From the NCBI GenBank assembly GCA_030062745.1, contig CP099850.1, positions 2,294,001 through 2,358,000 on the forward strand: 64,000 nucleotides of DNA. Reading direction: 5' to 3'. Below the pieces are notes generated by a model that was given only the letters and a program-made list of their open reading frames with translations, was not told where the DNA came from and did not search any database. Below, in pieces: positions 35,817 to 38,800 of the stretch. Both the position numbers and the translations under genes were made by a program. The DNA is from Capitulum mitella. Taxonomy: Eukaryota > Arthropoda > Thecostraca > Pollicipedomorpha > Pollicipedidae. How positions within the stretch are numbered: position 1 is the stretch's first letter; each line of letters starts with the position of its first letter.

Positions 35817-38800
35817 CTGCAGACCAGCAGACGCAGCGCGGCGAATGACGACCGCCGATTAACGATGAACAGTAGGGGCAGTGAAAAGAACCTGCTCTCG
35901 TTCAGTATCTCAAATACAGGATACCGTGAGGCAGCTTACTCATGTTGGGTAAATATTGAGGCACAGCACAAGTCTGCTGTTTTTCACACATCGAACAAAT
36001 CAAAATTGTCCCTGAGTCCACTCTCGTCATCCTGTAATTCTGATTTCCACCCTTTTCAGTCGGCCCATGGTCCTGTTACTGCCGTTCCACAGTTGACCCA
36101 CGCCAACGTTTCTCCCCCCCCCCCCCCTCCCAGTCTGCCCATGTCCCGTTGCTGGGCCTCCACAGTCTGCCCATGTCCCGTTGCTGACCCTCCACAGTCG
36201 GCCCGCGTCCCTGTTACTCACCCTCCACAGTCGGCCCATGTCCCGTTGCTGACCCTCCACAGTCGGCCCGCGTCCCTGTTACTCACCCTCCACAGTCGGC
36301 CCATGTCCCGTTGCTGACCTTCCACAGTCGGCCCGCGTCCCTGTTACCCTCCACAGTCGGCCCATGTCCCGTTGCTGACCCTCCACAGTCGGCCCGCGTC
36401 CCTGTTACTCACCCTCCACAGTCGGCCCATGTCCCTGGACGGCACACGCTCGTGCGGTACGCCTGCGGCCACGATCAGGAAACGGTCCGTGATGACGTGC
36501 TGCGGCGTCACGCCGTCGCAGAGCTGCAGCTCCACCCGCAACCGCTGCCCGGTCGGCACTATGCCGCTGCTGGGCCGCACCCGAAACTTCTCCGGCGAGG
36601 TTGTCTTAACCTGGCCAGTGGCAGCAGGACGAGATCGGGAGTCGTGAACACGCGAGGCCGGCACGTGTCAGGTGTCAAAAACGGGCCGGGGCGAAAGGTC
36701 GCAAGGGCTCAGAAAATGTTTCGGCAATGTGCTCAGAACGTACATACAAACTCCCGTGCCGTTAATAGCAGCGAAGGATTTGCAGCCAACAAAACTTCTG
36801 CGATGCAAAAGGACGGTGTCGATAAAAATCCAACCACACTACAATGGGTTAAAATATTTTTCAGCCTACCGTTAAAAGGTCACGTCCACGATAGCTCCTT
36901 AATCTCACCTCCGAAGCGGACGTTTTCTAGTTACCTTGAATGCAACCGGAGCGCCCCGCGTGTTGACCAAAGTTAAAGCTCTTTTGGCGCCGGTTGCTCC
37001 ACTGCCGAACCAGATCTCTTCTCCAGGAGATATCTCAAATAGACCGCCTGAAACAGCGCGCCTCTGTCCACGTCAGAGGCCAGCAATCGATCTGCCATAG
37101 CACGGGACAGCTCCGCTCTTCCTGAGGCATGTGAAGTGTTATCATTGATACTGCAAAACGCTGCTGGTGAAGGGAGCATGCACCTGACTTTCCACAGGTA
37201 CGCTGAAAGTTGTGTCTGCCATGGCCGCACTGCAAATTTCCGCCGTGTATTGGGGCACATCACGGATTGGATAACTCCGCGGAAAGCGAACTGACCCACG
37301 GGCCGGACCGGACCGGACCACGAAATTCAAACAAGATACGGATTAGGACCGGACCAGGTTTTGGAATTCGCCAGGCCACACGGATCTGACGGACTGAAGA
37401 TCGATTAAATTTCGAAACACGGTAACTGGACACGATCTTTGAAGGCAGTTAGAAGACATATTGAATTTCTTAAAAGGGAACAATTAAAAATGTTCAGATA
37501 TGCCACATCTGTCTATTTATGATGAAAGAAGCAAAACCTTGAATACGGATTGGCGCGGATTTTTTATAAACACATTTTTACTAGAAACTGGGTCGGACCG
37601 GATTCAGGAATTCCGGATAAGGCGGATTGCGGACAGACTGGATCCTAGACTTCACGGGCCGGACTGGACTGGACCCTGAAAATTCAATCCGTGAAGTGCT
37701 CTGCTTGAAACATATCGTCCCTGGCATTCTTGACTTACCTAGGTCGGCGGTCGAGGTTTCTTCCACAGCTCTTCCGTCCGAAAGCTCGTCACTGGTGACG
37801 CTGACCTCATCAGGGAAGTGAACCTGAAGCACAGATTTCGCAGAGGGACAATGCTTTTCCTGAAATATTTTTGATCCCTCTCTCCTTTCCCATTTGGTTG
37901 TATGAAACACTGAGTGCGGCAGGGTTAAATAATCAACTCCAAACAATGGTGCTGGCTTGGTAATTGGACCCAACACGACAATACTAAATCAACATCACTT
38001 AAATGAAAGGTGTCGAACAATGGAACCACTGTCTGCGCATTGTCCAGCTTTACTGATACAAAGTCTAACAGAACCCAGCCAGCCTTCAACGGCAGAGCAA
38101 GTCCTCAAAAGCACAGGAGCGGGTACAACACACAGAAGCCCTCCCGCAGGTAAGCAGCGTTACCAACAGCCATCGGAAGTTCCTAACCTTACTCTGACCA
38201 GGATTGGAGACCAGACGGCCAGAGGTCACCGGCCGACCTTATGACCCGGCCTCTCACTGACCTTATGACCCGCCTGAGACGTCGGCCGCGGATCCCGCAC
38301 GCTGTGGAAGTTGGCGGCCGCCTGGTGACCTTGGCTCGTCTTGCGGCCGCCGCGCGCGCGGTCGCTGGCCCGCGGCGGCCCGTCGTGACCGTTCGCGACT
38401 CCGTTGATGTCGTCGGCCGGCCCGTCGTCGGCCGGCTGGTCGCCGAGGAACGGCGACTCGGGCATCGCGCACTCTTCCGGATCGAACGAGTACGCCCAGG
38501 TATCGGAGCCGCCCCAGCGAACCAGGCAGCTGTCGGCCGACACCAGCGAGCTCACGTCCTTCTTCGACGCGAACTTGATCAGCTGGTGTGACTTGGCCGG
38601 CAGCATGTTCTTGACGATTTTCCAAGCGGCTGCCGAGCAACATCGGTTCTGAGGACGGCTCTCGAAACGGAGGCGCGAACCACGGCAGTGGTTCGCGCAC
38701 ACTCAGATGTGTTTTGATGCATCGCAGCAGGAGAAACAGAAGCAGGGTAATGTACACTGAAGTATGGCAGTTGTCACTTCAGGATAATCACCCACATGTC

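Follow-up and report, generated by a model that had tools for sequence, protein, structure and literature searches.

A junction-spanning minisatellite in the MOSPD2 gene of the barnacle Capitulum mitella and similar arrays at other splice junctions of its genome

The MOSPD2 locus and its array

The window, i.e. the whole stretch of 64,000 nucleotides of Capitulum mitella DNA that was analysed, carries on its reverse strand a gene that we identify as MOSPD2 from its MOSPD2-type MSP sequence, its barnacle MOSPD2 matches and a putative C-terminal membrane segment that was recognised by eye in the window protein. When joined, exons 8 and 9 align to the MOSPD2 MSP structures 6tqs and 6tqu with W-R-S-L-P placed against W-K-E-V-P, and the best matches of the window protein in a protein search are barnacle MOSPD2, for which PF00650 and PF00635 (CRAL-TRIO and MSP) are listed. 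These data bear out a preliminary description of the locus, which had named the gene MOSPD2 with exon 8 as its MSP exon, and had related the exon end to the x-FW-K/R-EVP stretch of other MOSPD2 proteins. The features around the exon 8/9 junction are as follows.

36413 to 36610, reverse strand: MOSPD2 MSP-domain exon (exon 8), ending in RDMGRLWR, placed by homology and splice signals
35817 to 36412, reverse strand: intron 3' of exon 8, 596 bp, from GTGAGT to CTGCAG
35565 to 35816, reverse strand: exon after this intron (exon 9), beginning with SLPSEDKLEHCLRC and reaching the transmembrane segment; its 3' end is provisional
36125 to 36435, reverse strand: minisatellite of alternating 33- and 32-bp units, 4.9 copies of a 65-bp higher-order unit, of which 23 bp lie in the exon and 288 bp in the intron, from TRF and unit alignment
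36049 to 36124, reverse strand: poly-G run, with older, decayed units, bordering the array on its 3' side; 36049-36147 of the window matches the array at 71%, and core matches occur here

The array starts 23 bases inside exon 8 and fills 48% of the intron, so that exonic and intronic sequence of one junction lie in a single array. TRF on 36125-36435 returned a period of 65 bp with 4.9 copies, 92% matches and a score of 517, with an alternative reading of period 32 and 9.8 copies. Unit alignment distinguishes an A unit of 33 bp (..GGAGGGTGAGTAACAGG) and a B unit of 32 bp (..GGAGGGTCAGCAACGG), which are arranged as A B A' B A B A B C and then run out into decayed copies; the donor has a matching position within the A units. 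The end of the exon lies in the first A unit, which is identical over 33 bp to the third and the fourth; 4 bases are missing from the donor of the A' unit (GGGTAACA, with 36347 as first intron base), and one B unit carries a single change. The unit core, GGCCGACTGTGGAGGGT, has 10 matches with at most 3 mismatches in the window, all of them within 36049-36427, against a chance mean of 0.25, and none of 100 shuffles reached 10. The array is thereby confirmed as an observation, and it has the structure that had been proposed for it, a 65-bp composite of 32- and 33-bp monomers that bear the end of exon 8 with GTGAGT and are copied into the intron. On RNA folding the array is less stable than its shuffles (z of +2.17, with 99 of the 100 shuffles matching or exceeding its stability), and for this reason we claim no structural RNA role for it. 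Another array of the window, at 53169-53321, lies near a further MOSPD2 exon at a distance of about 75 bp and does not span it.

Donor copies and their coding outcome

The repeat carries splice signals along its length, namely exactly three copies of AGG/GTGAGT, one GTAACA in the A' unit and four GTCAGC in B units. The sites nearest to the exon and the exact copies are listed below.

36407 to 36415, reverse strand: presumed authentic donor AGG/GTGAGT, first intron base 36412, from homology and U1 pairing
36374 to 36382, reverse strand: B-unit site AGG/GTCAGC, first intron base 36379, adding 11 amino acids, with a weak U1 match
36342 to 36350, reverse strand: donor copy with 4 bp deleted, AGG/GTAACA, first intron base 36347, adding 65 nt with a frameshift
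36281 to 36289, reverse strand: second exact donor copy AGG/GTGAGT, first intron base 36286, adding 126 nt with an in-frame TAA
36216 to 36224, reverse strand: third exact donor copy AGG/GTGAGT, first intron base 36221, adding 191 nt and reading TAA

Duplex energies with the 5' end of U1 were calculated for all GT sites of exon 8 and the intron. Each of the three GTGAGT sites pairs with −11.7 kcal/mol and the next-best site with −7.2 kcal/mol, whereas the B-unit GTCAGC sites reach −4.8 or −5.4 kcal/mol (−4.8 kcal/mol at 36379) and the A' GTAACA −5.9 kcal/mol. Since no other GT site pairs as strongly as the three GTGAGT sites, which are equal in energy, the first MOSPD2 donor is not weaker than its copies.

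The coding outcome was computed for ten donor sites (36412, 36379, 36347, 36318, 36286, 36253, 36221, 36188, 36050 and 35939). The donor at 36412 gives the plain protein, that at 36379 adds 33 nt and thereby VSNRDAGRLWR in frame, that at 36347 shifts the frame, and the seven farther sites all read TAA after 22 intronic codons, which leaves 36379 as the one alternative of the ten that keeps the frame open. According to these outcomes the 11-residue isoform would be reached only through a weak site, and splicing at an exact copy would truncate the protein ahead of the membrane anchor. The earlier expectation of at least three exact donors thus holds, and three of the positions given for them (36413, 36287 and 36222) are indeed the last exon bases of the exact donors; the remaining one, 36380, belongs to an inexact GTCAGC. 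Likewise, the frame arithmetic by which a 33-bp monomer would insert VSNRDAGRLWR is correct, but the insertion needs this GTCAGC, as the next exact GTGAGT, at 36286, leads to TAA. The 32-bp monomer shifts the frame as had been stated, and so does the 65-bp unit.

The protein search, which returned 116 proteins from 7,996 scored candidates and of which 14 were aligned, also informs on which copy of the repeat is the original one. The top matches are two MOSPD2 proteins, one from Pollicipes pollicipes with 64% over 96% of the query and one from Amphibalanus amphitrite with 61% over 86%, and at the position of the exon 8/9 join they read RDMGRLWR/SLPS (P0001) and RDMARLWR/SLPS (P0002), neither protein containing array residues. 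Because the exon end is kept in these two proteins, the exon copy is identified as the ancestral one, in line with the preliminary description, which had taken the first copy for the ancestral exon end. Among the 14 aligned proteins the picture is not uniform: in two other Pollicipes entries, P0004 and P0007, no WR-SLPS stretch is aligned, while three additional residues (VKQ), unlike the array, occur at this position in P0006.

Similar arrays at other splice junctions

The genome of the barnacle itself (477 Mb in 16 contigs) was searched with the array DNA, and among the best candidates, which were the ones scored, one other locus matched, L002, at 69% with an E value of 8.7e-11. It lies in a coiled-coil gene that we take to be rootletin. 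Here an array of 46-bp units in 2.5 copies extends 16 exonic bases past the apparent acceptor, where the limits of the exon are drawn from the open frame and not from homology, and at the same exon an array of 58-bp units in 13.7 copies begins at the donor ..ACCGCACAG/GTCAGC with 3 exonic bases only and was not counted as spanning. We read the likeness of L002 and MOSPD2 as that of two G-rich, donor-bearing arrays with different units and probably not as a shared element. A dispersed family of donor satellites was considered as well and rejected, as the pattern has 15 genome matches with at most 3 mismatches, 8 of them in the MOSPD2 array and 7 elsewhere, and a reversed-pattern control has 12.

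Kinase exons were taken as an independent sample because L002 was a biased match. A PF00069 search gave 138 places, from which 50 exons in 46 loci were fetched (20 + 24 + 6); they were picked by hand, mostly as short open frames, before any flank was seen. Splice sites were called by a rule with position weights at a score of at least 0.5, and an array was counted as spanning when it covered at least 8 bases on each side of the junction. Arrays span 4 of the 87 junctions, three acceptors and one donor. The acceptors are those of L038 (60-bp units in 2.7 copies, 93%), L052 (66-bp units in 2.0 copies, 100%) and L065 (59-bp units). The donor belongs to L068 (G000:C11:7181865-7182768), presumably a MAPKAPK-like kinase, where about ten diverged units of 28-30 bp with 66% matches occupy 529-826; the exon end CTACATCCT/GTGAGT is repeated, and five exact GTGAGT stand at 551, 580, 610, 639 and 806, an arrangement more extended than that of MOSPD2. 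Both types of junction are therefore hit in this genome, donors in MOSPD2 and L068 and acceptors in L038, L052 and L065. The MOSPD2 array had initially been treated as a one-off, which no longer holds, as the same structure occurs at these four kinase exons and is known from amphioxus.

The number of spanned junctions has to be read against the density of arrays in the surrounding introns. Random cut points placed 60-280 bp into the same introns fall into arrays in 5.3% of cases (bootstrap 2.0-9.5%), and the expectation is thus 4.6 of 87. Stricter cut-offs for the site score give 3 of 83 where 4.4 are expected and 3 of 68 where 3.9 are, L052 dropping out at a cut-off of 1.0, and an earlier count on 44 kinase exons gave 3 of 73 against 4.2 expected. 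The impression from the biased MOSPD2 and L002 cases that arrays are drawn to splice sites was rejected on these numbers. Points 40 bp inside the exons were spanned in 0 of 87 cases, and TRF on five shuffles per locus found no arrays. Arrays cover 1.0% of the inner bases of the exon matches (98 of 9,714; 89 in L060 and 9 in L038) and 4.9% of the bases in the flanks (1,299 of 26,640). The exception to this sparing is L060 (G000:C8:15705953-15707072), in which two short arrays, at 482-542 and 713-764, lie inside the open kinase exon match. In this sample of one domain family and four events from one genome, arrays neither seek nor avoid junctions detectably, moderate enrichment or depletion being below what it can resolve, and exon interiors are largely spared.

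For comparison, minisatellites make up 5.3% of 200 kb sampled pseudo-randomly within the first 12-18.5 Mb of the 16 contigs, and 2.85% of the window. An ORF screen of the same 200 kb gave, by eye, a handful of real gene pieces, which is not enough for a count. About 5% of junctions genome-wide is an extrapolation from the kinase sample.

Relation to known systems

The human IFI6 minisatellite was reportedly found by Turri, Cuin and Porter in 1995 to give multiple splice donors. Two downstream repeat units of this minisatellite, in the gene also called 6-16, are reported as used donors (PMC4526556). As in MOSPD2, the repeat supplies several donors; the downstream ones of IFI6 are reported to be in use, whereas those of MOSPD2 are putative donors and the exact downstream ones would lead to a stop.

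The closest counterparts are the mirages of amphioxus, described as minisatellite-like tandem duplications over exon-intron boundaries of Adh3, the globins BflGb6 and BflGb9, PGBD5 and troponin C (PMC3087553, PMC3902484). According to these reports they occur at 5' and 3' boundaries, carry AG/GT signals in many repeats and have units from 10-72 bp (Adh3) to 150-160 bp; RT-PCR suggested undisturbed regular splicing, Adh3 showed length instability, even somatic, and the authors proposed that mirages contribute to intron gain. The MOSPD2 array is alike in every feature tested here, in that it spans the junction, its repeats carry splice signals and both junction types are hit in the genome. The host is an arthropod here and the frequency per junction was measured in the barnacle, whereas splicing and length instability were looked at in amphioxus only.

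Related single duplications are reported in fission yeast, with introns in 24-bp tandem AGGT repeats, and in the potato RdRp gene, where an acceptor-side intron-exon stretch is duplicated (PMC4974935). The same source cites Hellsten 2011 for a tandem duplication involving splice signals in ATP2A1. These share with MOSPD2 a tandem duplication with splice signals, but the MOSPD2 acceptor is outside the array and a new intron is improbable here. The precedents found are thus in cephalochordates and human IFI6, with the single duplications of yeast and potato. In the open-licence literature searched, no title or abstract opening on barnacle minisatellites names junction-spanning arrays, nor does any title among the matches listed for arthropods, and a word search of a Daphnia tandem-repeat paper (PMC3152781) for splice site, exon-intron or donor gave nothing.

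Origin and meaning of the array

The MOSPD2 array belongs to the known class of mirages, and what is new is that it is not isolated in the barnacle genome. We consider it highly probable that it is a minisatellite seeded by tandem duplication over the exon-intron junction and tolerated there with the first donor in use, as a by-product of minisatellite density. As suggested by the unit order, the last 23 bases of exon 8 and the donor would have been duplicated into the intron, the copies would then have diverged into the A and B types, and the A/B pair may have been re-amplified as a 65-bp unit by unequal exchange or slippage. The change was presumably tolerated because the coding copy stayed intact. 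The spliceosome would use the exon-proximal donor, leaving the extra donors as neutral intronic decoys; since an unchanged exon copy with its donor comes before all the others, it seems most likely that the first donor is used and that the others are neutral. The rate at junctions in the sampled exons is about that of the nearby introns, and the arrays therefore seem to be a side effect of dense minisatellites rather than a targeted device.

It is unlikely, in our view, that the array is instead a functional multi-donor switch as in IFI6, which would yield, depending on array length, MOSPD2 proteins whose MSP domain does or does not end in VSNRDAGRLWR, or transcripts regulated by NMD. Three identical strong donors within one intron, one alternative site in frame and the two used downstream donors of IFI6 (PMC4526556) speak for such a switch, but the site that keeps the frame is the weak GTCAGC, a stop follows when an exact copy is used, and the two closest orthologous proteins have no insertion. 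Moreover, junction coverage in the kinase sample is at background and so gives no sign of selection for such arrays.

Far less probable still is that the intron itself arose by tandem duplication of an exonic AGGT segment (the Rogers/Hellsten model), with the array as its remnant. The amphioxus authors did propose mirages as a route of intron gain (PMC3087553), and exon-derived repeats account for nearly half of this intron; under this model, however, the duplicated unit should supply donor and acceptor alike. The acceptor CTGCAG/AGTTTACC of the exon from 35816 stands outside the repeat unit, with the TRF array ending 308 bp and the last decayed copy about 230 bp before it, and the exon copy reads AGGGT, not AGGT, with AAGGT in one B unit. 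Collapse or expansion of copies during assembly is the least credible explanation of all: units that barely differ and a poly-G run pose difficulties for assembly, and the BflGb6 mirage of amphioxus was wrongly assembled in a draft (PMC3087553), but the ordered unit differences (A/B alternation, single private changes) and the decayed copies at one edge make an artefact unlikely for the existence of the array and possible for its copy number.

The MOSPD2 case matters mainly for the apparent frequency of such arrays in the genome. That roughly one in twenty sampled junctions is spanned, at the same rate as plain intron, suggests that junctions are little barrier to tandem duplication, and that exon interiors are. 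With up to five identical GTGAGT in a row, L068 is a natural construct for studying the choice that the spliceosome makes between equal sites, and arrays of this kind let one ask whether duplicate sites ever become new exon edges. A wider scenario, which we offer tentatively and regard as rather doubtful, is that barnacle genes contain thousands of junction-spanning minisatellites (~5% of junctions, if the kinase sample is typical) as a constantly renewed stock of donors and acceptors that shifts exon edges, makes isoform polymorphism between individuals and feeds the gain of exons or introns. If true, this crustacean would be a system for measuring the mirage route of gene-structure evolution.

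Further repeats in the window and at other loci

Several other repeats were seen along the way. At L014 (G000:C12:3902000-3911900), in a gene that we assume to be rootletin-like, 21% of the sequence is minisatellite, with several arrays that have CAGGTCAG in their unit (700-1037, 2256-2404 and 6734-7524). L015 has, at about 4079-4879, an exon resembling a Hint domain, which we presume to be hedgehog-like, and an array of 30-bp units in 4.1 copies ends at 4159, shortly before the exon. In the window, a GAC/GAT microsatellite of about 210 bp lies at 39391-39604 between MOSPD2 exons, and a very recent minisatellite of 50-bp units in 8.0 copies with 99% matches occupies 26995-27394, outside the MOSPD2 exons found. 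The same 41-bp doublet is present at 29610-29690 and 46260-46340, and a palindromic CCGGATATCCGGCCGG motif at 27768-27804 and 43603-43639, each as in a dispersed element.
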